From Bacteroidota bacterium (lineage in GTDB: Bacteria > Bacteroidota > Bacteroidia > JACPRZ01), in contig JACPRZ010000012.1 of the NCBI GenBank assembly GCA_016193485.1, positions 97,109 through 161,108 on the forward strand: a stretch of 64,000 nucleotides of DNA. Direction: 5' to 3'. Shown in pieces: positions 17,441 to 53,180 of this stretch. A program made the translations under genes and the position numbers. Numbering within the stretch: the stretch's first letter is position 1; each line of letters starts with the position of its first letter. The notes under the pieces were generated by a model, which saw nothing but the letters and a program-made list of their open reading frames with translations, made no database searches and was not told the origin of the DNA.

Positions 17441-17698
17441 TTACTCCTCATAAATATCCTTTCTGTGCCCGATAGCAATTACATCTACAACGAGAATAGT
17501 ATCAAATATGTCGTAAATAATCCGGTAATTTCCTTGCCTTATTCGGTAACCTGAACGATTTTTCAGCTTAATATATCCTTGCGGTCGTGGGTTATCAGTT
17601 AAACTGTAGATAGTTGTTTTTATTTTGGAGTAATCGGGTTCGTTGATCTTTTCCAGTGCTTTTATTGCCTTTTTGCCAATAGTTACCTTATATCTCAT
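17441..17698 (-). CDS. RelE/ParE-superfamily toxin
   Basis: The 85-residue protein shows the RelE-type fold pattern: a helical N-terminus (IGKKAIKALEKINEPDYSKI), then GYIKLKNRSGYRIRQGNYRI and the C-terminal DVIAIGHRKDIYEE. Most RelE members cleave mRNA in the ribosomal A site; ParE members attack gyrase. The RIRQGNYRIIY and GHRKDIY segments fit the RelE type better. Its ATG overlaps the end of the antitoxin gene by 4 bp (ATGA), the usual arrangement of type II toxin-antitoxin operons. Confidence 0.85.
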   Translation of the reverse strand: MRYKVTIGKKAIKALEKINEPDYSKIKTTIYSLTDNPRPQGYIKLKNRSGYRIRQGNYRIIYDIFDTILVVDVIAIGHRKDIYEE

Positions 17699-33435: not shown

Positions 33436-34449
33436 TTAGAATAATCTGTGTTTTAAATGGCGGTATTCCATCACGCACAAATGCCGCCAGGGAACTTGTA
33501 ACTGCCGGCAGAGCGAAAAAAAATATTCAATGATCTCAGGTCCATATTTTTCGTCCAGCAGCAGATAAAACGTATTTAACCATAATTGCATTAATTTTCC
33601 TGAAAATTCCGGTTCAGGAAAACCCCCCTTTTGCCGGTTGGCATTCAAAAGCGCCAGGTACCATTCTTTATAACGATCAAGTGTCTGACGGATCGGTTTC
33701 CGCAAAATTTTATTTGCGAATTCAAAATGCAGTTCTTCCTCCCGGTTACTGCAGGGTATATTCATCCCGGTCAGGATTTCCCTGATAAATGAGTTTATTT
33801 TTTTTTCTTTCTCATCCTTCTTGCGAACGGTAATGTTCTGGCCTGCATAACGGAACAAAAGAATAATTTTATTGAGGTTCATGAAACGGGTGAGGTTGCG
33901 CATGCGGTACCATAATTCGTAGTCCTCCATGTGCAAACAGGAGGGATTATAGTAAAGTTTATTCCGGATCAGAACGTCTTTGCGGATCATGACTGTCGGG
34001 TGAAAGAACGGGTTCTGAAAAGGAAAGGAGGCAAGGATTTCCCGGTGGGAAAGAGGAACCTTCCATATCTCCTTTTTGTTCCCGATAATTTGCATATACC
34101 CTCCCACTACTCCAAGTTCAGGATGGTTATCCATTGTATCAACCTGCCAGTGCAGCCGTTCGGGATGAGCGATATCATCAGCATCCATCCGGGCGATATA
34201 TTCTGTTGCAGCAAGTTCAATACCCCGGTTGAGTGTTGCTGCTATCCCGGCATTTTTTTCATTCCTGAAATACCGGATCCGTTTATCTTTATAAGATAAG
34301 ATAATTTCTTCTGACCGGTCCTCGGAGCCATCATTGATAATGAGAAATTCAAAGTCGCAATATGTTTGTCCAAGGATGCTTTCAATGGCTTCGCGCAGGT
34401 AATCAGCGGCATTAAAAACCGGCATAAGCACTGTAATCCTCGGCTTCAT
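33436..34449 (-). CDS. Family 2 glycosyltransferase
   Basis: The 337-residue protein begins ITVLMPVFNAADYLREAIES and has FLIINDGSEDRSEEII, the DXD-type ARMDADDIAHPERL and FFHPTVMIRKDVL, all classical GT2 inverting-enzyme motifs. A helical C-terminal part (about 230-337, including WYLALLNANRQKGGFPEPEF) could bind acceptor or partner. It belongs to the minus-strand run 34.4-32.1 kb. No neighbouring feature fixes the donor sugar. Confidence 0.87.
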   Translation of the reverse strand: MKPRITVLMPVFNAADYLREAIESILGQTYCDFEFLIINDGSEDRSEEIILSYKDKRIRYFRNEKNAGIAATLNRGIELAATEYIARMDADDIAHPERLHWQVDTMDNHPELGVVGGYMQIIGNKKEIWKVPLSHREILASFPFQNPFFHPTVMIRKDVLIRNKLYYNPSCLHMEDYELWYRMRNLTRFMNLNKIILLFRYAGQNITVRKKDEKEKKINSFIREILTGMNIPCSNREEELHFEFANKILRKPIRQTLDRYKEWYLALLNANRQKGGFPEPEFSGKLMQLWLNTFYLLLDEKYGPEIIEYFFSLCRQLQVPWRHLCVMEYRHLKHRLF

Positions 34450-37250: not shown

Positions 37251-37386
37251 TATACTGATGGAATTTCATTTTGCGAATTGCAAAAGTGAAATTCATCAGT
37301 ATATGCTGACCTAAATGATTTGTGCTGACGATAAATATCAGTATCCAGACCGTAAGCGTCTGGACAAAATCATTTAGCGGCAGTAT
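37251..37386. repeat. Two adjacent extragenic palindromes inside the MITE
   Basis: The first palindrome (37251-37303) pairs TATACTGATG with CATCAGTATA and extends inward through GAATTTCA/TGAAATTC and TTTTGC/GCAAAA. The second (37303-37386) pairs ATGCTGACCTAAATGATTT with a right arm ending AAATCATTTAGCGGCAGTAT and encloses a perfect inner hairpin, TCCAGAC/GTCTGGA (37344-37363). The outer ATACTGAYG ends recur at 53087-53180. Confidence 0.6.
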
Positions 37387-37568: not shown

Positions 37569-38450
37569 TTAAATTTTAGTCCAACTGTACGGTACGATGT
37601 CACCTGCCTGACCCTGTTTAACCGGATCGGAAAACCAGCGGGCGGGAGCAATAACGATTTTTCCGGGTTTATTATTCAGCCAGGCGCCCCACCAACTGAA
37701 GGTGCTGTTTGCAATGATATGATGACGGCATTGGCTCATCAGGTACATATCGGTAATTTGTCCATCGTTTTTTTCAGTGGGAACCACTGCATTAGGACAA
37801 TTCAGTTGTTTGCGGAATTCATCCGGAACCTTATGGTCGCTGAAAATAAAAATAAACGGTTTTCCGGTTTTCTCTTTAATGAATGACACGGCTTTCAGGT
37901 AATAGGACGGATTCAATAAGCCATGCGTTGCAGCATCTGCTGTGCCATAGTCGCCATACCGGATGTGCAAAGATATCGAATTTTCGCTAATAATTTTTTT
38001 CTGAATTCCATGGTATTTGAAATCATCAGACAAATGGAAGATAAATGTCCGCCTGAAAAAGTCCTCAAACCTGATAAAATAGTTTTCCGACTGGAAATAT
38101 CCTTCAAGGCAACTATTCTTTCCAAGATTGAAAAACGAAGGATCAAAGGCGAGGGAACTCTCGCAATAATAGGAAAAGCGGATCAGCCGTCTTTTGATTT
38201 TCGTAAAAAATCTTTTTGCGGGATTCACGGGCAATTCAATCATTTTCCGGTAAGGATTGGCACAAATGTTTTTGCCCAGGCCAAAAATGTTTAAACTGAA
38301 AGTACGGTGTGTAATATTTTTTTTTGATTGGCCCTCCAGTGATGAAATATCAAAGCACACCCGTGTATCATGAATCAAAGCCAGCGATTGGGCAGCCGCG
38401 TACTGGAACATCTGGTTTCCGAGCCCCCCCTGGAGTTTTATGACGATCAT
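37569..38450 (-). CDS. GT11-family fucosyltransferase (alpha-1,2-type)
   Basis: The 293-residue protein has the GT11 set: the N-terminal IKLQGGLGNQMFQYAAAQSL, SLHIRYGDYGT (HxRxGDY donor motif, about residue 160) and NSTFSWWGAWLNNKPG near the C-terminus. GT11 members transfer L-fucose from GDP-fucose, usually in alpha-1,2 linkage, often on O-antigens or blood-group-like structures. GDP-fucose synthesis genes are not in the window. The stop TAA (37569-37571) lies inside the 8-bp duplication at the edge of the MITE, so the element inserted without disturbing the protein. The ATG overlaps the preceding small ORF by 4 bp. Confidence 0.92.
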   Translation of the reverse strand: MIVIKLQGGLGNQMFQYAAAQSLALIHDTRVCFDISSLEGQSKKNITHRTFSLNIFGLGKNICANPYRKMIELPVNPAKRFFTKIKRRLIRFSYYCESSLAFDPSFFNLGKNSCLEGYFQSENYFIRFEDFFRRTFIFHLSDDFKYHGIQKKIISENSISLHIRYGDYGTADAATHGLLNPSYYLKAVSFIKEKTGKPFIFIFSDHKVPDEFRKQLNCPNAVVPTEKNDGQITDMYLMSQCRHHIIANSTFSWWGAWLNNKPGKIVIAPARWFSDPVKQGQAGDIVPYSWTKI

Positions 38451-38554
38451 ATATTTTTTTGGCAGGAGTTATACACAAAAGGCATCGTATTGATCCTTGC
38501 CGATTTCGGATAATGGGGATGGTGGATCAATGCAATATTACGGCCGTTGCTCAT
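38447..38554 (-). CDS. 35-residue ORF coupled at both ends (possible glycosyltransferase remnant)
   Basis: The ATG (38552-38554) overlaps the methyltransferase stop, and the TGA (38447-38449) overlaps the fucosyltransferase ATG. Both junctions are ATGA. The peptide begins MSNGRNIALIHHPHYPKSAR and ends MPFVYNSCQKNI, which resembles the first strand-loop of a GT-B glycosyltransferase. It may be the leftover 5' end of a deleted gene, kept because it maintains translational coupling. It is also possible that it is not translated in its own right. Confidence 0.4.
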   Translation of the reverse strand: MSNGRNIALIHHPHYPKSARINTMPFVYNSCQKNI

Positions 38555-39289
38555 AGTTTTTTTACCACATAGGTTACGTACCAGGTTTTATCAGAGGGGG
38601 GGAACCCGGTCATCCATTGCTCCCGGTGAATGAGAGCCATGTGATTGGGGCGGATAAATTTTTCCAGTTCATCCGTGAATAAATATCTCATCGAATGCGT
38701 CTCTTCTATAGTACTCTTTTCACCGGTATGTTTATCGGTGATGTTCAGGGTAAAATATACATGGACAAATTTTTTTTTTGTGATATGCTTTGGTACGCCA
38801 TTCCGCACGATTTGGAAGCGATCATTTTCAAATTTTTTTGTGCGTTTGCAGGGGGGATCGGCAAGGACGGCCGGCCCGTACCAGGAATCAAAAATAAAGA
38901 TTCCATTTTTATGGAGATGGGATGCAGCGGTTTTAAAGAAGAGAAGGAGATCGTCATCGGTATTCTGATAATTCGCCACATGAAAGAGGGAAACGGCAGC
39001 ATCAAATTTCTTACCCAGTTGTAAGCGTAAAATATTTCCTGTAAAAAAGCAGGCATTTTTTACCCCCGCACCATTTTTTTCAGCCAGACCTATCTATGCC
39101 GGTAACGGAAAAGCCGTTCCGGGCCAGGATCACTTCATGTTTACCGGTACCGCACCCTAAACTCAAAAGATTTTTTGCAGCAGGCGCATATTTTTTCAAC
39201 AAGCCGTCAATATAAATAGATTCCGCATTATAATCCTTATCGCTGTAAAGCAGATCATAGTAAAGGGCGTAGTTGCTAAAGGGATTCAT
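38551..39289 (-). pseudogene. Class I SAM-dependent methyltransferase, frameshifted
   Basis: The first 69 codons (39289 to 39080) encode the N-terminus with motif I LSLGCGTGKHEVIL and end GFSVTGIDRSG-stop. In the next frame the rest of the protein continues without a break (GLAEKNGAGVKNACFFTGNI, KKFDAAVSLFHVANYQN, to TWYVTYVVKKL at 38551). Comparison with the usual GIDxSxxMLxxA sequence suggests that five or six residues and the frame were lost together, near 39085-39095, where GGTCTG may have recombined with a second copy. The product should be inactive unless this is a sequencing or assembly error. It lies between a DegT gene (4-bp overlap) and the 35-residue ORF. Confidence 0.75.
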
Positions 39290-40404
39290 TCTGCGATAAT
39301 GGTTTTGACCGCTTCTGCCGACCCCCTTATCTGCTCTTCGGTTAATGCAAGCCCGCTGGGAATGTAAAAACCTTTTCGTGCGAGGCGTTCAGATACAGGG
39401 TATTTTTCATTTTTGAACAACCCCATTTTCCGGAACACCGGTTGCATGTGCATTGGGATGAAAAAGGGCCGTGTGCCTATTCCCATACGCTTAAGTTTTT
39501 CCATTGCCGCAAAGGCATTAAATGGTATTTTTTTATCAAGGACAATTCCGAAAACCCACCAGATGTTTTCAGCATAAGATGTTTTTACGGGTTGAAGTTC
39601 AATACCGGGTACTTCCCGAAGCAATTCATGGTACAATTTACCCATCCTGCGTTTTTTCTGAATAAATTCATTCATTCGTTCCAGTTGCGCTAAACCGAGG
39701 GCTGCCTGAAGATTGGTCATCCGGAAATTGAAGCCCAACACCCTGTGATAAAATCTTTTTTGAGGCAGGAAACAGAGGTTTCTCAGGGAGCGGCATTTTT
39801 CAGCGATTTTTTTATCGTCCGTAACGATCATGCCCCCCTCGCCTGTGGTTACTAATTTGTTCGGATAAAAACTAAAGATGCTCACATCGCCAAAACTTCC
39901 GCATGGTTTACCGTAACAGGTCTGCCCGTGCATTTCGGCTGCATCTTCAATGATCCTTAAGCCGTGTTTACGTGCAAGTTGGAGAATCGGGTTCATATCG
40001 GCCGGCAGCCCGTAAATATGGACGACCATAATGGCTCTTGTCCTTTTGCCGATCTTTTTTTCAACGTGGCTTACATCCATATTCCAGGTGGAATCGCAAT
40101 CCACAAGGACAGGTTTCGCGCCTGCCCTTACAATGGCTGCGGCACAACTGATGATGGTAAATGCCGGTAAGATCACTTCATCGCCCGGTTTTATTCCAAG
40201 TGCGAGAACGGCAGCATCAAGCGCTGAGGATCCGTTGGTTACTGCAATGCCAAAGTTTCTGTTCACCCGTGTCGCAAACTGTTCTTCAAATTTTGAAACA
40301 AAAGGCCCTTCACTGGAAATCCATCTGGTTTCGATACATTCGGCAAGGTACTTTTTTTCATTGCCGTTCAGAAGCGGCTCATTAACGGGGATAAACCTCT
40401 GCAT
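39286..40404 (-). CDS. DegT/DnrJ/EryC1/StrS-family sugar aminotransferase
   Basis: The 372-residue protein begins FIPVNEPLLNGNEKKYLAEC and has TNGSSALDAAVLALGIKPGD, VHIYGLPADMNPIL, the PLP-lysine segment FSFYPNKLVTTGEGG and NFRMTNLQAALGLAQLE. It should transfer an amino group to a keto-deoxy nucleotide sugar; the sugar is not identifiable. Its 5' 63 bases (40334-40396) are nearly identical to those of the truncated gene at 45131-45319, although the two proteins diverge after residue 24. It overlaps the frameshifted methyltransferase gene by 4 bp and has a -7-like box just upstream. Confidence 0.9.
   Translation of the reverse strand: MQRFIPVNEPLLNGNEKKYLAECIETRWISSEGPFVSKFEEQFATRVNRNFGIAVTNGSSALDAAVLALGIKPGDEVILPAFTIISCAAAIVRAGAKPVLVDCDSTWNMDVSHVEKKIGKRTRAIMVVHIYGLPADMNPILQLARKHGLRIIEDAAEMHGQTCYGKPCGSFGDVSIFSFYPNKLVTTGEGGMIVTDDKKIAEKCRSLRNLCFLPQKRFYHRVLGFNFRMTNLQAALGLAQLERMNEFIQKKRRMGKLYHELLREVPGIELQPVKTSYAENIWWVFGIVLDKKIPFNAFAAMEKLKRMGIGTRPFFIPMHMQPVFRKMGLFKNEKYPVSERLARKGFYIPSGLALTEEQIRGSAEAVKTIIAE
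40334..40396. repeat. Direct repeat copy 1 (61/63 bp), left border of AT-rich island
   Basis: This 63-bp block at the start of the intact DegT gene matches 45255-45317 at 61 of 63 positions by eye (mismatches near 40351 and 40390). Both copies are in the same orientation. Homologous recombination between them would remove 4.9 kb and leave one DegT 5' end. Confidence 0.7.
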
Positions 40405-40408
40405 AAAG

Positions 40409-40416
40409 CAAAATTA
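40409..40416 (-). promoter_or_regulatory. Bacteroidota-type -7 box next to the DegT gene
   Basis: The minus strand reads TAATTTTG, an exact TAnnTTTG match, only 4 bp upstream of the ATG at 40404. If used, the transcript would have almost no leader. A match to the consensus by chance is possible. Confidence 0.28.
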
Positions 40417-40477
40417 CAGGTAATTTTGAAGCAGATGGGATCAGGATAAAAAATAATAAATGGAAATTTATTGAAAT

Positions 40478-40624
40478 TCAATGTGGAGTAGAACTGCTAT
40501 TGCTATTGCACCCATTTTTCAAAAGTTGTATTTGCTCCTGTAAAGATTGATTCTGCTCCTGCAAGGAAAATATGGTTGCTTGCTGGTCAAGTATCATTTG
40601 CTTTAACGCCTCGTATTCGGCCAT
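40478..40624 (-). pseudogene. IS66-like transposase N-terminal remnant
   Basis: A 48-codon frame begins MAEYEALKQMILDQQATIFS, a coiled-coil, and ends QIQLLKNGCNSNSSSTPH-stop. IS66 transposases (TnpC type) begin with such a coiled-coil followed by a LKNGRNSxTSSTPPS-like segment. Only the start is present and no other IS66 parts follow. The gap 40405-40929 otherwise shows nothing but AT-rich sequence and a promoter box. This remnant sits at one end of the AT-rich island, so an IS66 element may have taken part in its arrival. Confidence 0.55.
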
Positions 40625-40881
40625 ATCTATAGTGGCTGTTTCGATGTGAAAAATTTTTTAGCAAAGAAAAATCATTTCATCCATACGGAAAATGACGCAT
40701 TAAAATATTTTTCAACCGACTGCGGTTTATATCAAAAAAAATTATACCTTTACTGTTGAGTAGTAACATAGAAATTAATTGATGATAATTTGTTTCGATA
40801 ATGTGATAAAATTCACAGTATAGCAAACAAGAAATTTTTACCGAGTGTTTGATATGAATTTTTTTTACTTTTACATGGGTA

Positions 40882-40889
40882 TATTTTTG
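40882..40889 (+). promoter_or_regulatory. Bacteroidota-type -7 box upstream of the S74/T9SS protein
   Basis: TATTTTTG matches TAnnTTTG exactly, 40 bp before the ATG at 40930. A T-rich stretch (about 40858-40867) lies at the expected -33 distance but lacks the TTTG consensus. Confidence 0.42.
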
Positions 40890-40929
40890 ACTTTTCAAAA
40901 TGTTTTTAAACCTTTAATCTTCTAAACTT

Positions 40930-42921
40930 ATGAAAAATATTAAAACCAACACACTGCAAATGCTCTTGTCATTGTTTTTCTTAATGACAATAAGCTTTTC
41001 GGGTTATTCTCAACCACCATTAAACTATTGGAAATTAGGAGGTAATCCAATAACCGGAGTCACCAATGATGTGGTAGACACCACTAACAATTTTTTTGGT
41101 ACAAACTCAGGTATTGCTGTACCTGTAAAACTTGGAGCAAATGGTAATCAAAACCAGTTGTATTTATCTCCAATTACTTCTGGTATTGTCGGTATTGGTA
41201 CGACAACACCCACAGAAAAACTCGATGTTGATGGCAAAATCCGTATGCGTACCGGAGGCATTAGTGGTTTTATTCCTGTTTCCGATGCCAATGGAGTAAT
41301 GACATGGACTAATCCCACTACTATCACAACTGCAGATGACGGGGATTGGACAATTTCCGGGAATGATGTTTACCGAGCCAATGGAAATGTCGGCATTGGA
41401 AACACTGCTCCAACTGCACGATTGCATGTTATGGGAATTAACAATTCCTCCTCTGATTTCGGACTTAAAATACAGAATGGCTCCGGAGGCAATTTATTCA
41501 GCGTCCGGAATGACGGGGCAATTCAGGTGGGAGTTCCCGGTGGGACTGGAACAGTTAATATGTTTTGTAATAACGGCATAGATATGCAGGGAGAAATTAT
41601 ATTGAAGAATAATGTAGGCAAAATCGGATTGCACCTGACCAATCAGGGAACAGGCAATCTAGTGATTCTTGGCGACCCAACATGGTCTTTAAGAATTGAG
41701 AGTCCAGTAAGGTCAAATGTCGTTCTTGGAAACAGTGAGGCCTCCTTTGTACAGGGAGCAGGAAATGAAAAAAGAGGCGTCATACTTCATATACCAGATG
41801 TAACATTGTTTTATAACAATACAAACCCATTAAATACAGCAGCAGCTGTTTCTCTTGGAACTCCGACATTCGCATCTGTTCAGACAACAGTAATTACGAA
41901 AGCAGCAGCTCTTTACCTCAATGGCTCTCCACTAGCCGGTGCAGGAACAACTATATCAGAAAGATACACATTATTAATAGGAAGCGGTAATAGTAGATTT
42001 GACGGTAATGTCGGTATTGGAGTTGCTCCTTCCGAAAAATTGACCGTTGCCGGCACAGTTTTTTCCACCACCGGAGGCTTTAAATTTCCGGACGGAACGG
42101 TGCAAACTACAGCAGCAAGCGGATCTCCGCAATGGACAACTTCCGGCAACGATATTTATAACAGCAATATCGGCAACGTGGGTATCGGAACGACAACTCC
42201 AACAGAAAACCTGCATGTTCTTGGAAACATCTTAGCATCAGGCAGCATTACTCCTTTTTCAGACCAGCGGTTTAAAAAGGATATTAATAGATTGGAGAAT
42301 TCTTTGGAGAAGGTGTTAAAGCTAAGAGGTGTGAATTATTATATGAATACCGAAAAATTTCCTAAATACCATTTCAGCGACAAGAAACAAATCGGATTCA
42401 TTGCACAGGAAGTAGAAAAAGTGCTGCCTGAATTGGTTATTGCCCACAAGGATGGGTATAAGTCATTGGACTATATGAAAATTACTCCTCTATTAGTTGA
42501 GGCCATTAAAGAACAACAGGCAATTATTGAAAAACAGGCAAAACAAATAGAGGAACACTCAAGACACATAGAAGAAATAAAAACTTATGCTACACAATCA
42601 AATAAAGCGGATGATTTTTACAGTGAAACTCTCCAGACAACAGACAAAAAACAAGAAAACGGAATAGTTCTGTATCAAAACAAACCGAACCCGTTTACCG
42701 AAAACACCGTCATCCAATACAAGATTCCCTCAACAGTGAATGAAGCATCTGTCTTAATCTTTGATATGCAAGGCAAGCAATTAAAGAAGTATGAGAATTT
42801 AAAAAGAGGAGAAAGCAGCATTGTTATCAATGGAGGAGAATTATACATGGGTATGTTTATTTATTCTCTTATTGTAGATGGTAAAGAAGTAGCGATAAAA
42901 AGAATGATTTTAACAGAATAG
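40930..42921 (+). CDS. Fibre-like surface protein with S74 intramolecular chaperone and T9SS sorting domain
   Basis: The 663-residue protein has a signal peptide (about 1-27) and a fibre-like region with four copies of a trimeric-fibre motif: VGIGTTTPTEKLDVDG, VGIGNTAPTARLHVMG, VGIGVAPSEKLTVAG and VGIGTTTPTENLHVLG. A peptidase_S74 chaperone domain follows (SDQRFKKDINRLENSLEKVL to GFIAQEVEKVLPELV), with the Ser/Lys arrangement used for autocleavage in endosialidase-type tail spikes. A coiled-coil (IKEQQAIIEKQAKQIEEHSR) leads to a type A T9SS C-terminal domain (NPFTENTVIQYKIP to RMILTE). It probably forms a trimeric surface fibre. It is the only plus-strand gene in the AT-rich island. Confidence 0.88.
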   Translation: MKNIKTNTLQMLLSLFFLMTISFSGYSQPPLNYWKLGGNPITGVTNDVVDTTNNFFGTNSGIAVPVKLGANGNQNQLYLSPITSGIVGIGTTTPTEKLDVDGKIRMRTGGISGFIPVSDANGVMTWTNPTTITTADDGDWTISGNDVYRANGNVGIGNTAPTARLHVMGINNSSSDFGLKIQNGSGGNLFSVRNDGAIQVGVPGGTGTVNMFCNNGIDMQGEIILKNNVGKIGLHLTNQGTGNLVILGDPTWSLRIESPVRSNVVLGNSEASFVQGAGNEKRGVILHIPDVTLFYNNTNPLNTAAAVSLGTPTFASVQTTVITKAAALYLNGSPLAGAGTTISERYTLLIGSGNSRFDGNVGIGVAPSEKLTVAGTVFSTTGGFKFPDGTVQTTAASGSPQWTTSGNDIYNSNIGNVGIGTTTPTENLHVLGNILASGSITPFSDQRFKKDINRLENSLEKVLKLRGVNYYMNTEKFPKYHFSDKKQIGFIAQEVEKVLPELVIAHKDGYKSLDYMKITPLLVEAIKEQQAIIEKQAKQIEEHSRHIEEIKTYATQSNKADDFYSETLQTTDKKQENGIVLYQNKPNPFTENTVIQYKIPSTVNEASVLIFDMQGKQLKKYENLKRGESSIVINGGELYMGMFIYSLIVDGKEVAIKRMILTE

Positions 42922-43077
42922 TTCTTAACCCTGATATTTTTTGAGTAGATGAAAGATGCGGTTTGAAGATTTACATTCTGGGAGAGAGAAATAACTGGTG
43001 TTGCATATATAACCTGACATAGCGACATAAACCTCTTAGGTTTACAGAGAAGAGGGTAGAAGATTTTGTCACAAGTA

Positions 43078-43824
43078 TCATTTCTTTTTTGCTAAAATAT
43101 GATAACCGAAACAAAGTAACTCCGAAGATATTTGATCATTGCGGGAAAAATTATCCAGCATTTTCAAAATATTATTTAATGTTTTTTTTTCACTTCCGGA
43201 CAATCTTTTTAAACTATATTTTTCAGCTATAGAAGGCAACCTTCTTATCTCTTGAGCAATATACTCAAAATAGTTCCCATTAGGTGTGGCCTCTATAATT
43301 TCAAAATCATTTAATTTCAACGCATTTTCATAAAAATATTTATTAAAACCGCTATAAAAGTGATAGGGGGCAAAATGAGTAAGACTGCAAAAAGGAGCGG
43401 TAATAATTATGTACCCGTTTTTTTTTAGCAAGCGCGAAAATTCCCTTACAGCATCAATAGGATTTATTATATGTTCAAAAACTTCTGTACACATGATTGC
43501 ATCAAAAGATGAATCTGCTTCCGGAATGGAAGCGATATCAGAAACGATGTCTAAAGCCCCGTAGTCCCATTTATCCATTTGCAAACCTTCAGGCAATTCT
43601 TCAGGCTTATACTGGGCAAAATCCTGTGAAACATAATTCAAATGAGTGCACAATTTCTTAAATTGTTGTTCTCCTGCACCTGCGTCTAATATCCTAAGGC
43701 CTTGTGGAATTTTTTTTAACGTATTCTCAAGCCAAGCTATACGCGTACTTTCATTATAGGTGCCAACTTTATTAATGCTAACTTCTGAAATACCTAATAT
43801 TTTCTTAATTACTTTTTTAATCAT
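43078..43824 (-). CDS. Class I SAM-dependent methyltransferase
   Basis: The 248-residue protein has motif I LRILDAGAGEQQFKKLC, DYGALDIVSDIASIPEADSS, the post-I DAIMCTEVFEHIINPIDAVR and KKNGYIIITAPFCSLTHFAP, the usual order of Methyltransf_11-type enzymes. The target could be a sugar hydroxyl, an amino sugar or a lipid carrier. It lies 6 bp after the putative GT gene on the same strand. The sequence is distinctly AT-rich compared with flanking genes, which supports separate acquisition. Confidence 0.85.
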   Translation of the reverse strand: MIKKVIKKILGISEVSINKVGTYNESTRIAWLENTLKKIPQGLRILDAGAGEQQFKKLCTHLNYVSQDFAQYKPEELPEGLQMDKWDYGALDIVSDIASIPEADSSFDAIMCTEVFEHIINPIDAVREFSRLLKKNGYIIITAPFCSLTHFAPYHFYSGFNKYFYENALKLNDFEIIEATPNGNYFEYIAQEIRRLPSIAEKYSLKRLSGSEKKTLNNILKMLDNFSRNDQISSELLCFGYHILAKKK

Positions 43825-43830
43825 TGCAAA

Positions 43831-44982
43831 TCATGTATTAATTTTAAAACCTAATTGAACTAAAATCGAACTTATATATCTATCAAAATCATACAATCTA
43901 CTTACTAAATCAAATGCCGCTTGTGCATACTGTTCCCTATTAGCATTAATTGTTTCTAATGCAATTCGTATATATTCCGGTGAATAGTTTTCTATATATA
44001 TAAAGGGTGGTTTTTTTGTTATGTCTTCATTAATATTAGTCAATATGGCTAATCCACTTTTCAAATACGAAGCTATTTTTCCGGAAGAGGTAATCAAATT
44101 TTCAAAATTACTACTATTGCCAATATTATTGTAAAAAGCCAAACCAACATGTTTATCTGCCAAAAGATTCAGATGTTCCGCATCAGAATAAAAACATTCA
44201 TCAATCGTACATCCGGAAATAGATAGAATTATTTCATGGAGTTCAGCCAAATATTTTTCAGTTGCTATGGAATGACCTTGTAATACTAAATCACACATAT
44301 TAAATGATCCCGACAATTTATATCCATATAAAAACTCTCGCAAACCAGACCACTCGGCAAAATATCCTGAATATATAATCTGAATCCTGTTTTGAAGTCC
44401 TTTCCGGCTGATAACTTTTTCTTGACGCTGAGAAACCGGTAAAAAATTAAATACCAAGTTTTTTTCTAAATAATTTGATACGTCTTCTGCTCTTTCTTTA
44501 TTCTGAATAATTCGCATCTTACAACTTTCTAATAGAGCATAAATATGAGATTTTTTTAAAGTAGAAATTTTCATGAAATCAATACCTTCAAATGAAAGAA
44601 AAACTACTTTTTTTAAATCAAAACCCACATCATATAAACATAATAACGATAAAAAATCAACTGCAAAAATTAAATCATATCTCCGAATTTTATTTTTAAT
44701 AAAATATTTGAACGAATTAATCTGTGATAATTGTAAAATATTTTTATAAAAAAAACTACGTAAAGGATAATGATCCGAAAGGCTAAAAATATTTGCACCT
44801 TTGACCTTTACCAGTTTATCTCTATATATATTTTCAACAAATACATCTATTTTTAAATGAAATTTATCATAAAAAAAAGTACAAATATTTTTTAAAACAG
44901 GAGATAATTCAAAACAATAGTAATAACAAACAATAGATATTTTTTTAACAGATATAATAGATTGTTCATTAGGATTTTTCAC
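43831..44982 (-). CDS. Putative glycosyltransferase (GT-B-like), AT-rich
   Basis: The 383-residue protein has weak GT-B features: the opening KKISIVCYYYCFELSPVLKN, the middle QIIYSGYFAEWSGLREFLYG (donor-domain start) and CDLVLQGHSIATEKYLAEL. The C-terminal LNLLADKHVGLAFYNNIGNS then SSGKIASYLKSGLAILTN corresponds to the donor-site region of GT4-like enzymes. No canonical E-x7-E is visible. Base composition and codon choice (many TTA, ATA, AAA) differ from neighbours. It is probably a sugar transferase that arrived with the adjacent methyltransferase. Confidence 0.6.
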   Translation of the reverse strand: MKNPNEQSIISVKKISIVCYYYCFELSPVLKNICTFFYDKFHLKIDVFVENIYRDKLVKVKGANIFSLSDHYPLRSFFYKNILQLSQINSFKYFIKNKIRRYDLIFAVDFLSLLCLYDVGFDLKKVVFLSFEGIDFMKISTLKKSHIYALLESCKMRIIQNKERAEDVSNYLEKNLVFNFLPVSQRQEKVISRKGLQNRIQIIYSGYFAEWSGLREFLYGYKLSGSFNMCDLVLQGHSIATEKYLAELHEIILSISGCTIDECFYSDAEHLNLLADKHVGLAFYNNIGNSSNFENLITSSGKIASYLKSGLAILTNINEDITKKPPFIYIENYSPEYIRIALETINANREQYAQAAFDLVSRLYDFDRYISSILVQLGFKINT

Positions 44983-45130
44983 TTCATCAAAAAAATAAAG
45001 TATATTAATTGTAGTTCCTGCAAAATTCCGATATTCAAATTTTACTGACTAATGAAAAAATATTAAGAATTCAGAAATGATTCATTAGATAAAATATTCA
45101 TTGAAACAAATATTGTACAAATAATTATTT

Positions 45131-45319
45131 TTATCTATCTAAGGTAGCTGATCCATTTGCTACAGCAATGCCGTGATTTCGTTGCTCATGAGCCGAAAAT
45201 TTTTTTTCAAACACTGAAATGAAAGACCCTTCCCTTGAAATCCAGCCGGAATCAATACATTCGGCAAGGTATTTTTTTTCATTGCCGTTCAGAAGCGGCT
45301 CATTAACGGGTATAAACAT
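45131..45319 (-). pseudogene. Truncated DegT-family aminotransferase (5' fragment)
   Basis: The frame encodes 62 residues, FIPVNEPLLNGNEKKYLAEC to NGSATLDR-stop, equivalent to the first 63 or so residues of the complete gene at 39286-40404. The protein breaks off after ATLD, where full members continue AAVLALG; the following bases are AT-rich and unrelated. The first 21 codons are nearly identical in DNA to the intact copy, but the next 40 are much less similar. It is the older border of the AT-rich island: an aminotransferase gene cut when foreign DNA arrived. Confidence 0.85.
45255..45317. repeat. Direct repeat copy 2 (61/63 bp), right border of AT-rich island
   Basis: This block matches 40334-40396 at 61 of 63 bases, in the same orientation, 4.9 kb away. 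It is the 5' end of the truncated aminotransferase gene. Sequence identity drops sharply outside the block, which suggests past recombination or gene conversion limited to it. Confidence 0.7.
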
Positions 45320-45356: not shown

Positions 45357-46547
45357 TTATAAATCCATTGCAGGAATAATTCCGGTTTCGTAAGAAAACA
45401 TTCCGGATGTTACATAGAATTCTTTTATTCCTATGGAACCGGCCGTTTTTGCAAGATTAAAATAATCCCTGGCGGACGCTTTACTTTTCACCTCAAGGGC
45501 AATTTTTTTTTCGGGTAAAATAAAATCAATTTCGGGACCGCTTCGCCTTTGGTAATAATTTAACTTGCCATACTTTCTAAGATTAAGAAAGACAGAGTTT
45601 TCAAGCAAACTGCCTTCCGGAATTTTTGCTAGGTGTGTTAAAAATCCGGTATCGCACAGATAGACCTTTTTAGCTCCGCTTACTTCTTTATCTGCATTAT
45701 TAGAGAATGGGGAAAGCAGAAAAATAAAATAAGTGCCCTCTAAAAAGGCAATATAAGAATAAATGGTTTCACGGGTAACTCCCAACTCTGAAGATAACTT
45801 TGTAAAATCCAGTTTTGAACCTGTGCGTTGCATCAGGAGGATAAGCATATCACGGAAAACGGTTATTTTTTTGAAATCAGCCAACGCTCTTACTTCCTTT
45901 TCAAAATAGGAGTTAAAAATATCATTCAGGTATATTTTTTTTTGCTCATTGTTATCGGCAAGCGCAACCTGCGGGAAACCGCCATACGTAAGATATTCAT
46001 CATAAAACTTTTTCAGTTTTTCACATTTAATGAAGTTTTTATTTTGTTCTTTTTGCATAAAATCCGATTCAATAGAAGTTTCATGCTCCACATTTTTAAA
46101 GGTTAAAAATTCATCAAAATCAAGCGGGAAGAGTTCAAATATCACCTTTCTTCCGGCCAAACTCTCCGGGAAAAGGTTTTTGAGATAGAAACTGCTTGAA
46201 CCGGTAACAAAAAATTTAATATTATGGTGATCATAAAGATATTTTAATGCGTTTACTATTTCCGGTTTTACCTGAATTTCGTCTAAAAATATATATGACT
46301 TTTCATTTTGGTTGATTCCGTAGGGTTTAAGATTATTAAGAATGTTGTTAAAGTCGGTTTCTTCAAAAATCTTTTGTTCCAGTATATTTTCAAGGTCAAG
46401 GAATACTTTGTTTTTACCTGGAATTAAGTCGTATATCATTCGCAACAGGGTGGTCTTTCCTACCCTGCGCATACCGGTAATCACAATAATTTCTTTAGTA
46501 TTAATTTGTGAATCAATATGTTTTAAGATAGTCCTTCTGTATTGCAT
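45357..46547 (-). CDS. AAA-type ATPase with C-terminal DUF4143-like domain
   Basis: ATG 46547 gives 396 residues starting MQYRRTILKHIDSQINTK. Walker A is GMRRVGKTTLL and Walker B is YIFLDEIQV. The segment FVTGSSSFYLKNLFPESLAG is typical of the ATPase/DUF4143 family. A winged-helix-like part (KLDFTKLSSELGVTRETIYS) and a C-terminal nuclease-like fold (RRSGPEIDFILPEKKIALEV) follow. These proteins are widespread, often mobile and of unknown function. A longer start at 46613 would add 22 residues. It interrupts the glycan gene order and has lower GC, so it is probably a later arrival. Confidence 0.85.
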   Translation of the reverse strand: MQYRRTILKHIDSQINTKEIIVITGMRRVGKTTLLRMIYDLIPGKNKVFLDLENILEQKIFEETDFNNILNNLKPYGINQNEKSYIFLDEIQVKPEIVNALKYLYDHHNIKFFVTGSSSFYLKNLFPESLAGRKVIFELFPLDFDEFLTFKNVEHETSIESDFMQKEQNKNFIKCEKLKKFYDEYLTYGGFPQVALADNNEQKKIYLNDIFNSYFEKEVRALADFKKITVFRDMLILLMQRTGSKLDFTKLSSELGVTRETIYSYIAFLEGTYFIFLLSPFSNNADKEVSGAKKVYLCDTGFLTHLAKIPEGSLLENSVFLNLRKYGKLNYYQRRSGPEIDFILPEKKIALEVKSKASARDYFNLAKTAGSIGIKEFYVTSGMFSYETGIIPAMDL

Positions 46548-46649
46548 GGTGTAAATATACAAATTTGTATCAAATATGTAGGGTATTAACAGACAATTCC
46601 GCGTTGTTATCAATAATTTGTTCGGACAATGTGAAAAAAATCACATACG

Positions 46650-47078
46650 TCATTCAAAATTCAACTTATCCGGGTCAATAGGGGGGAAGCGTGTTTTTTC
46701 GCCATCGCCTGCATAGGGACCCTGCTTAACTTCTATCATTTCGGTTGGTTCCAGCATTTCAAAGCCATGGCCTCCATGGGCAAGGAGGATGACATCGCCC
46801 TTCTTAAGGATCCTGCTCCGCAGATATTTTTTTTCATCGTCATAGAAGTCAACCCGTACTTTGCCGCTTTTGATGAAAAGTACTTCCTGTGTATAGGTAA
46901 TTTCACGCGGCAGGGGGGTATGGACATGGGGTTCAATTTTATATCCTTCAGGGCGGTTCATATAGGCGAGTTGCTGAGAGAAATTATCGGGGGTGAAAAA
47001 TTCAATACCCGGTTTTAAAAAATCACGCGGGATGATAATGGCGAGGATTTTCCCATTATGAATTATGCGGTGAATCAT
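46650..47078 (-). CDS. Cupin-fold protein, WxcM/FdtA-like
   Basis: ATG 47078 gives 142 residues. The cupin core includes EGYKIEPHVHTPLPREITYT (metal-ligand His-x-His and Glu), LFIKSGKVRVDFYDD and KKGDVILLAHGGHGFEML. In glycan loci such cupins can act as sugar ketoisomerases or epimerases (for example FdtA-like), but this one lacks a full match and may only bind metal. Its ATG overlaps the stop of the preceding GT2 gene by 4 bp. A longer form from 47126 would add 16 residues inside the GT2 gene. Confidence 0.7.
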   Translation of the reverse strand: MIHRIIHNGKILAIIIPRDFLKPGIEFFTPDNFSQQLAYMNRPEGYKIEPHVHTPLPREITYTQEVLFIKSGKVRVDFYDDEKKYLRSRILKKGDVILLAHGGHGFEMLEPTEMIEVKQGPYAGDGEKTRFPPIDPDKLNFE

Positions 47079-48196
47079 TGAATAAACCTTCTTTTGATAT
47101 AAGCAAGAAACTTCAACAGACGGCAAAAGTATGATTTTCGGAATTCAATGACCGAATGATAGCGCAGAAGTATTGCCAATTTGTATTCTTTGATATTAAT
47201 TAATCCGGTTTTTGGAACATTCCTTAATAGTACACCTGCTTCCCGCCACAGACCGAAATAAAGGAACTTATCAATGAAATATAACAAAACCCTTATGTAA
47301 TCCTGAACCGGAATATCCTGTTGGGTAGTTATATTGATTTGCCGGAAAACCTGCTGAAGTTGTACAGAAAAGGTGCGATTCTTTCTGTTTAATTTTTCTT
47401 TCAATGCATTCAAAAGAGCGATCCTAAAATCCATCCAATTGTAATATTTCTTTTCATTTTTTGACTCCAGATATTTCCTCACATGAATATAATAAGGCAA
47501 ATCCCTGATTTCCTGCCGGAGATGCAATAATTTATTGTGAGAATAATCCGAATGTAAGCCGGACAGATTGGTTCCGTGAATCCGGTACCTGTACAGAGGT
47601 TTGGAGGAAAAGAATATTTTATTTTCATGTGAAGCGAGGAGGGGTATCCACCAGTCCTCATGGGGAAGGGTTTCAGGCATGGGGAAGATGGTTTCGGCAA
47701 TTTTTCTTTTCATTAAGATGCTGCCTACTCCTGAAGGGGTCAGCAGCATGGATTCAAAAGAAATTTCGGAATCATGAAATTTTTCCAGCCAGTTTTCCTT
47801 TACAATATCGTTCTCATTGTTGATTTGTTTAAGGTTGCAGTAGGTCAGGTCATACGTATTCATGTATTTTAACTGTTCTTCAATCCGGTTGGGTTCGTTC
47901 ACATCATCGGCTCCAACGATTGCAATATATTCACCCGATGCGCAAGCAAATGAATTATTAAAAGCCGCGATTTTTTTCCTGTTCATTTCAAAGCGGAACA
48001 GTTTAACCTTCGGGTTGCCGGAATAATTTTCGTTGAGGCTATTAAATGTACCATCGGAAGAACCATCATCCGTTATTACCACTTCAATACTGGAATAGGA
48101 TTGGCGCAGGCAGGATTCAACACAATCCAGGATATACTTCCGGCAATTGTAAGCAGCGATAATGAAAGAAACCAAATCTTTTTGGACGGTTATCAT
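47075..48196 (-). CDS. Family 2 glycosyltransferase
   Basis: The 373-residue protein begins LVSFIIAAYNCRKYILDCVE and has VVITDDGSSDGTFNSL, IAIVGADDVNEPNRI (acidic pair) and LTPSGVGSILMKRKIA. The C-terminal half is helical and basic (RLLKFLAYIKRRF). GT2 enzymes with this layout make O-antigen or capsule linkages in the cytoplasm. ATGA overlaps on both sides (deacetylase upstream, cupin downstream) place it in one tightly coupled operon. Confidence 0.87.
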   Translation of the reverse strand: MITVQKDLVSFIIAAYNCRKYILDCVESCLRQSYSSIEVVITDDGSSDGTFNSLNENYSGNPKVKLFRFEMNRKKIAAFNNSFACASGEYIAIVGADDVNEPNRIEEQLKYMNTYDLTYCNLKQINNENDIVKENWLEKFHDSEISFESMLLTPSGVGSILMKRKIAETIFPMPETLPHEDWWIPLLASHENKIFFSSKPLYRYRIHGTNLSGLHSDYSHNKLLHLRQEIRDLPYYIHVRKYLESKNEKKYYNWMDFRIALLNALKEKLNRKNRTFSVQLQQVFRQINITTQQDIPVQDYIRVLLYFIDKFLYFGLWREAGVLLRNVPKTGLINIKEYKLAILLRYHSVIEFRKSYFCRLLKFLAYIKRRFIQ

Positions 48197-49251
48197 TGTT
48201 TCAGCGTATGAAGCAGTTCCTGCATAAGTTGGGAGTATTGTTTTTCACGCCACCATTTTACCAGGTCAATAGCGGATGTCATCCAGCCGTTTTTATTATA
48301 AACATATTTCAGAATTGATTCATAAAATTCACCCATTTCGCCTGTTACATAATTATTGTGCCAGAGAAAAGTCAAGACACCTCTGCAGGATTCAACTTCA
48401 TCAATTAAACGGCAACATTGCTCCAGGGCATCCCTGTAAGAGAAGCGCATATAATGAAACAAAGAGACATCCATAATAACGAGGGGCAGTTCGAGGAGAT
48501 CAAAAAAATTACCGGTTTTGACATTGAAAGGGCTAAAAGGATAACACATGCCGTTCCTGAATCCAATATGGTCGGCAAAACCGAACGTTGTATCGTACAC
48601 AAAACCGGCAGAGGCAAGGTGTGACCAGGTTTCAGGAATGCTGAATCGCAAAAAGTGGTTTCTATACCCGGCAATTTTTGTTTTCGCTATTTCCTGCAGG
48701 GTATTTTTCTCCCGGATCATTCCGGACAGGTTACGGTACGCCTCGTGGCTGCCATGCAATCCTATTTCACAGCCCGAATTCACCAGCAGGGGAAAAAGAT
48801 ACTTGATCTGTTCAAGTTCATAATTAAAATCCTTTTCATTTTTCTTCAATGCGAGAAAAAAATAGGTGGCTGTTGCGTTATACTTTTTATCAAGTGAAAT
48901 CATTTTTTCCAGTCTCCAGTCAGGATTGAGTTGAACCGGTTCTTTAATGCCGAGTATTTTTTTAGCAGTATGCCTGACTTTGTTTTCAAATGAGTGAGGA
49001 ACATACCTATAGTTCGGGTCATATTTTGCAAGCAGGTCAACGTCATGGGTCAGGCAGACGGCAAACTTCCGGTTACCCGGATAAGTTGGCTGAAACCCGC
49101 TTTTGTGCAGATATTTTGATACTACAGGATACAGGAGTTCTTTATTGGAAGTAAATTTTGAACTTACCCGACCGTATTCATCCTTTTCGGCAGCAGAATA
49201 TTCGGATTTTGCAGTAAATACATCCCATAATATATTTTTTTCGTCATTCAT
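48193..49251 (-). CDS. Polysaccharide deacetylase-like protein (NodB homology)
   Basis: ATG 49251 gives 352 residues. The NodB-type metal site starts with KFAVCLTHDVDLLAKYD (Asp pair), followed by TATYFFLALKKN and CEIGLHGSHEAYR (His-x3-His), and GYRNHFLRFS supplies the later Arg. It should remove N-acetyl or other acyl groups from a glycan or lipid-linked sugar. The 80 residues before the catalytic domain are not typical. It overlaps the upstream methyltransferase gene by 8 bp (ATGAATGA) and the downstream GT2 gene by 4 bp. Confidence 0.82.
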   Translation of the reverse strand: MNDEKNILWDVFTAKSEYSAAEKDEYGRVSSKFTSNKELLYPVVSKYLHKSGFQPTYPGNRKFAVCLTHDVDLLAKYDPNYRYVPHSFENKVRHTAKKILGIKEPVQLNPDWRLEKMISLDKKYNATATYFFLALKKNEKDFNYELEQIKYLFPLLVNSGCEIGLHGSHEAYRNLSGMIREKNTLQEIAKTKIAGYRNHFLRFSIPETWSHLASAGFVYDTTFGFADHIGFRNGMCYPFSPFNVKTGNFFDLLELPLVIMDVSLFHYMRFSYRDALEQCCRLIDEVESCRGVLTFLWHNNYVTGEMGEFYESILKYVYNKNGWMTSAIDLVKWWREKQYSQLMQELLHTLKQ

Positions 49252-49972
49252 TTTTTTTGTAAACATGGTACGTAGAAAGGCCATGGCCATACGGATTTGT
49301 AAAATTACCGATCAACGATAAACCCGCCCCTGCAAAATAATCTTTAACCGCATGGGCTGATAGCACCACAGGATAGCGCTCCTTAAAGGATAACCATTTA
49401 TTAATGGATTCCTTGTCAAAGGTCTCGGATGAAAAAAAGTCAAAGACAATGATCCCGTCTTTTTTTGTAACCCGCATCATTTCATTAAAATATTCAAATG
49501 AATGAAGAAACGGCAGATAAACAAATAAACCATGTGCTTGTACCAGGTCAAATTCATCATCTTCCTCGAAGGATAGGGTTCTGCCATCGGCCTGCCTTGC
49601 AATAATGGAATAATTTTGCCCAAGCCACTCTGACCAGTCCTCATCGGTTTCATAAATGACATATTTTTTGGGAGAATACCTTTTTATTATTTTATCGAGG
49701 TAACGACCGGTTCCCGGCCCTATTTCCAGGATATTATCAAGGGAGGCAGGATTTACAATCCTTGAGATGTTATCGATTATTTTTTGGGTTGCGCCAACCT
49801 GGTTCCACATTTTTTCAACATAGTCACCGACTGACAGGTTATTTTTCCGGGCATTCCACAACGTTTCCCGGCAATCTATATAAGTTCCTTTTTTCTTTTC
49901 ACCGCCACGATCCATTTTTACCATACGGTAACCCGCTTTACCGATAATCCTGTTGATTAAAGTGCCTATCAT
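49244..49972 (-). CDS. Class I SAM-dependent methyltransferase
   Basis: The 242-residue protein has motif I LDNILEIGPGTGRYLDKIIK, the acidic YVIYETDEDWSEWLGQ, EFDLVQAHGLFVYLPFLHSF and TKKDGIIVFDFFSSETFDKE. An N-terminal segment of about 90 residues (WNARKNNLSVGDYVEKMWNQ) precedes the fold. It probably methylates a sugar in the glycan. Only 27 bp separate it from the FkbM-type gene upstream; the 3' end overlaps the deacetylase gene. Confidence 0.85.
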   Translation of the reverse strand: MIGTLINRIIGKAGYRMVKMDRGGEKKKGTYIDCRETLWNARKNNLSVGDYVEKMWNQVGATQKIIDNISRIVNPASLDNILEIGPGTGRYLDKIIKRYSPKKYVIYETDEDWSEWLGQNYSIIARQADGRTLSFEEDDEFDLVQAHGLFVYLPFLHSFEYFNEMMRVTKKDGIIVFDFFSSETFDKESINKWLSFKERYPVVLSAHAVKDYFAGAGLSLIGNFTNPYGHGLSTYHVYKKNE

Positions 49973-53086: not shown

Positions 53087-53180
53087 ATACTGATGCTGAA
53101 TGATTTTGCAAATCATTCAGATCAGCATATACTGACGAATTTGATTTTGCAAACTTGCAAAATCAAATTCCGTCAGTATA
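53087..53180. repeat. Pair of extragenic palindromes (REP-like) between sulfotransferase genes
   Basis: The first palindrome (53087-53128) has an 11-bp perfect core, CTGAATGATTT/AAATCATTCAG, around TGC, extended by ATACTGAT/ATCAGCAT. The second (53128-53180) pairs TATACTGACG with CGTCAGTATA and AATTTGATTTTGCAA with TTGCAAAATCAAATT. The outer ATACTGAYG motif and inner TTTTGC match the palindromes inside the MITE at 37251-37386, but no TIR/TSD surrounds these. Confidence 0.6.

Follow-up and report, generated by a model that had tools for sequence, protein, structure and literature searches.

A direct repeat around genes for surface structures may look like a switch, and the question raised by this locus of a Bacteroidota bacterium is whether the repeat pair bounds a cassette or is the footprint of an older rearrangement. 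The preliminary description favored the former and proposed that the DNA between the repeats may be excisable, which would vary the cell surface. We analyzed the locus within a window of 64,000 nucleotides (64 kb), and all coordinates given here are positions within this window. The repeat and the two genes that carry it are as follows:

40334..40396, (-) strand: repeat copy A of 63 bp, located 5' in the intact DegT gene
45255..45317, (-) strand: repeat copy B, likewise of 63 bp and located 5' in the DegT stub
39286..40404, (-) strand: DegT-A, intact DegT/DnrJ/EryC1/StrS aminotransferase of 372 aa (PF01041, 6.9e-112), with orthologues in 19 other genomes
45131..45319, (-) strand: DegT stub B, decaying and truncated at around codon 60 (PF01041 positions 5-52)

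The repeat and the two DegT genes

A base-by-base comparison bore out the direct repeats flanking the 4.9-kb interval, as 61 of 63 bases were identical between 40334-40396 and 45255-45317 in direct orientation and at an offset of 4,921 bp. The longest exact run between the copies was 38 bp (40352-40389 and 45273-45310), and this core had no match across 100 dinucleotide shuffles. No other direct repeat in the window reached 40 bp, just two places in the 4.0-Mb genome matched with a third copy being absent, and the viral contigs searched yielded only unrelated chance matches. Weaker homology between the two genes covered 168 bp at 79% identity and extended, by eye, up to codon 60 of the stub, while on the start-codon side the block stopped exactly where the homology itself stopped.

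Read in frame, the block comprises 21 codons (FIPVNEPLLNGNEKKYLAECI) with 60 of 63 bases identical between DegT-A and the stub, in contrast to only 73 of 108 (68%) in the following 36 codons. The identity change point was located at nucleotide 62, and none of 5,000 codon permutations produced an equally strong one. Identical codons were used at 18 of the 21 block positions (P about 2e-4 or lower, uncorrected for the choice of window), compared to a codon agreement at identical residues of 37-46% across whole orthologues.

Among the observations that would speak against it, the preliminary description had named such identity being the norm for this gene family. For this check the comparison set consisted of 21 DegT genes, i.e. 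DegT-A, the stub and the orthologues from 19 other genomes of the phylum (60-75% amino-acid identity to DegT-A), which provided 209 pairs besides DegT-A and the stub. At the block position these pairs shared a mean of 42 and a maximum of 50 of 63 bases, and no other DegT pair thus approached the value of 60. In the next 36 codons they shared a mean of 69 and a maximum of 81 of 108, so that the 73 observed here fell inside the range, and 68% is what orthologues from different families typically show. Identity therefore changed abruptly inside a homologous stretch and rose above the family norm, as expected of a scar. Since the block exceeded anything found elsewhere and the remainder was within the normal range, the block would represent a patch of recent common descent in otherwise diverged copies, and such a sharply bounded mosaic is indicative of recombination or gene conversion involving two DegT alleles that had diverged. 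Even though the protein motif at the DegT 5' end is strongly conserved, chance or codon conservation in a slowly evolving 5' end is a hardly tenable explanation for the repeat, given the maximum of 50 of 63 among the orthologues and a codon agreement of 86% in the block where codon bias leads to an expectation of 45% (P 5e-5). The block contained three synonymous differences, which indicates that it is not brand new and that the copies are drifting apart. Beyond the orthologues, the contig scan for DegT relatives returned distant ones only (33-51%), and phage relatives were under 36% among the matches listed.

Closer examination of the stub revealed a perfect block part followed, just beyond the block, by departures at two residues that are invariant in the 19 orthologues (WISSEGPF to WISREGSF). 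This combination is in keeping with the selected gene having converted the remnant once decay was under way, and we infer that the transfer ran in this direction, from DegT-A to the stub. Outside the block the stub, compared over 36 codons (108 bp) only, matched the orthologue of genome G313 best (80/108) and not DegT-A (73/108). In a tree of these 108 columns DegT-A and the stub were not supported as sisters, and this grouping was not rejected either (p-AU 0.146), so that an old duplication with subsequent conversion is a further possibility. The stub starts with MFIP, as does the nearest relative, G058, while DegT-A starts with MQRFIP, and the end of the stub at codon 60 adjoins an AT-rich gap (19% G+C). 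Upstream of DegT-A a 48-codon ORF (40475-40624, (-) strand) encodes a coiled-coil-like, Q-rich sequence (MAEYEALKQMILDQQATIFSLQEQNQSLQEQ...).

The interval and the modules around it

The interval and its surroundings contain the following genes:

40930..42921, (+) strand: protein with an S74 chaperone domain (PF13884, 2.4e-17) and a T9SS sorting tail (PF18962, 1.6e-5, below the curated cut-off; TIGR04183, 24.0 bits, cut-off 23)
43078..43824, (-) strand: MT, SAM methyltransferase (PF08241; gene order), whose relatives adjoin GT11
43831..44982, (-) strand: GT, putative glycosyltransferase, AT-rich, without family match
45357..46613, (-) strand: AAA_14/DUF4143 ATPase between the cupin and the stub (PF13173, PF13635)
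46650..47126, (-) strand: WbuC-like cupin of the cupin-DegT-MT' module (TIGR04366, below the curated cut-off), adjoining DegT in relatives
38551..39289, (-) strand: MT', the frameshifted methyltransferase that belongs to the cupin-DegT module
37569..38450, (-) strand: GT11 glycosyltransferase, conserved neighbor of MT (PF01531; gene order)
33436-34449: GT2, after GT11 and outside the interval

The cargo had been correctly described, as the S74/T9SS gene, the methyltransferase and the putative glycosyltransferase were the only genes in the interval. No transposase, integrase or replication genes were present inside it, and it did not qualify as an IS, transposon, plasmid or phage. GT had no Pfam match and no relatives on plasmids, nor did any of 389 other genomes from the class contain one at E<=1e-15; a weak 22% match was obtained to an ORF in L061.

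The interval had also been called AT-rich, which is correct for its overall G+C content (33.6% versus 40.9% in the window), but the repeats do not delimit the AT-rich stretch. Among the individual genes the G+C content was 39.5% for S74, 32.7% for MT and 26.5% for GT, followed by the gap before the stub mentioned above, and low values persisted beyond the repeat, in the AAA_14/DUF4143 gene (33.9%). The continuation of low G+C outside the repeat together with the value for S74 places the composition boundary elsewhere than at the repeats. Putative secreted proteins encoded in opposite orientation were found inside or beside the same polysaccharide rows in the window (40930-42921), L080 (5267-7186) and L060 (6343-8364), with a T9SS tail shown for the window protein only.

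In 17 of the 19 other genomes with DegT orthologues a compact module was apparent, in which the WbuC-like cupin is located directly upstream of DegT or separated from it by just a methyltransferase, and in many of them a methyltransferase follows DegT. The exceptions were G167, where no cupin is nearby, and G067, whose contig breaks off immediately upstream of DegT. The window contains cupin, DegT and MT' once each, but the module is split, with the cupin beside the AAA_14/DUF4143 gene and the stub, and the intact DegT-A together with MT' 6.2 kb further. The frameshift in MT' lies beside homopolymer runs and reflects either a real pseudogene or a sequence error. The genome encodes ten DUF4143 genes including 45357-46613, and a relative of this gene on C39 is 50% identical in protein.

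MT follows a different pattern. Relatives were present in 11 other genomes, and gene order was read in nine of these, leaving out G088 and G076. MT was located upstream of GT11 in eight of the nine, directly adjoining it in five (G147, G006, G203, G043 and G323) and separated from it by at least one gene in three (G005, G077 and G521), and the order was reversed in the remaining one (G664). In the window MT is part of a conserved methyltransferase-GT11-GT2 row with both partners, GT11 and GT2, outside the interval, which is why the interval is not self-contained cargo. Apart from the genome under study, no sampled genome had both a close DegT relative and this methyltransferase. The split cupin-DegT module, the MT-GT11 row and this separate distribution are best read as two interleaved modules that other sampled genomes carry separately, and judging from gene order the repeat-bounded interval is probably neither a natural unit nor a discrete mobile one.

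Deletion, switching and the origin of the repeat pair

Scripted joining of the flanks removed 4,921 bp and left an open DegT frame of 370 codons starting with MFIPVNEP, confirming that a deletion across the repeats would keep a full aminotransferase gene. A spontaneous homologous or slippage deletion across the repeat is possible; it would probably be rare, and it would take away the backbone methyltransferase MT. Since only two copies exist and both are in direct orientation, such a deletion would be irreversible, and sites that permit reversal, i.e. inverted sites or several cassettes, were not found, the locus having one direct pair and no third copy. The part of the window's ORFs scanned with Pfam and NCBIfam included no recombinase, transposase or integrase, and neither an Rfam nor a tRNA scan revealed an integration site. 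The exact 38-bp core within the repeats and the open frame remaining after deletion are what one would expect of a cassette excised between them. Considering the one-way nature of the deletion, the lack of a recombinase among the ORFs scanned, the loss of a backbone gene and the drift between the copies, we regard both excision of a cassette, one of whose genes belongs with GT11 outside, and the switching of surface structures as very improbable. Phase variation of Bacteroides capsules is based on invertible promoters and recombinases. The locus described here resembles that system in being a surface polysaccharide cluster from the same phylum, as judged by the T9SS tails, but differs from it in having a direct repeat only, no inverted sites at the repeats, no invertase found and an irreversible change.

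With a probability of roughly two in three, we consider the repeat pair to be the scar of ordinary recombination or gene conversion, left in a polysaccharide cluster of mosaic structure in which two modules have become interleaved. According to this reconstruction from sequence and gene order, a surface-polysaccharide cluster of the ABC-transporter type would have been remodeled so that cupin-DegT-methyltransferase and methyltransferase-GT11-GT2 became interleaved, with two diverged DegT alleles ending up 4.9 kb apart. One allele would have stayed intact while its counterpart was truncated at codon 60 and began to decay, and the conserved 5' ends of both would subsequently have exchanged a patch of about 63 bp, either through a crossover during the rearrangement or through later gene conversion.

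Campbell-type or homology-assisted insertion, in which incoming DNA with a partial DegT gene crossed over at the conserved 5' end, brought GT, MT and S74 and split cupin-DegT-MT', is an unlikely alternative with several points in its favor. The interval is flanked by direct repeats and nests exactly within the conserved module, joining of the flanks restores the order cupin-(AAA_14)-DegT-MT', GT and MT are low in G+C, and the start of the stub resembles that of G058 and not that of DegT-A. Campbell integration as the main model was nevertheless downgraded, as MT is part of the MT-GT11-GT2 row and low G+C continues past the repeat; in addition, crossovers are disfavored between alleles with a similarity of only about 68-75%, and mobility genes were not detected in the ORFs scanned. 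An assembly chimera joining the clusters of two strains would be compatible with a metagenome-like assembly of 72 contigs and a mosaic boundary inside a conserved gene. At 38 bp the exact repeat is short relative to usual read lengths, the contig extends well past the repeat on both sides and the copies differ, all of which renders a chimera just as improbable as the excised cassette.

Relation to known systems and neighboring features

Mosaic polysaccharide clusters commonly feature swapped glycosyltransferase and methyltransferase genes, low-GC islands and broken genes, all of which were also seen here. Compared to O-antigen or capsule clusters of this kind with pseudogene remnants, the locus stands out through an unusually clear 63-bp identity patch in diverged copies, and no close match was found among open-access papers on remnants in polysaccharide clusters. 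As a recombination scar, the repeat pair would be a concrete trace of surface-polysaccharide cluster reshuffling in Bacteroidota, its site being flagged by what is left of a decaying aminotransferase gene. Direct repeats can surround surface genes without constituting a switch, and it is the comparison with relatives that separates a footprint from a cassette.

In the T6SS effector-immunity arrays of Vibrio cholerae, modules are proposed to be displaced through recombination anchored in the conserved 5' part of a gene, with remnants left behind, and homology-facilitated illegitimate recombination has been put forward as the mechanism (PMC5361080). Similarly, a conserved 5' stretch would be the anchor at the present locus, a truncated remnant is left and module genes are parted from their partners. 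Unlike in V. cholerae, a sugar aminotransferase gene is involved, the anchor occurs twice, the 5' remnant is the part retained and there is no related strain with intermediate states. The resemblance is one in outcome. Whether the conserved DegT 5' end (VNEPLL-GNEKKYL-ECI) acts as a recurrent recombination anchor for the exchange of polysaccharide modules between clusters, leaving 5' stubs, is a speculative proposal to which we assign little likelihood.

Several further features were noticeable in the window. A VimE deacetylase-related protein (48193-49290; 117 bits, cut-off 440) is clustered with a T9SS-tailed protein, and a link of this VimE-related protein to anionic LPS synthesis is possible. 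A ParE-like toxin gene (17441-17698, PF05016) is located beside sugar genes. A dispersed REP/BIME-like hairpin repeat at 37251-37322 (+) and 53109-53180 (-) belonged to no Rfam family at the gathering threshold; it forms two back-to-back stems with a folding z-score of -11.5 and had 46 matches in the genome, mostly at 76-91% identity apart from the query itself.
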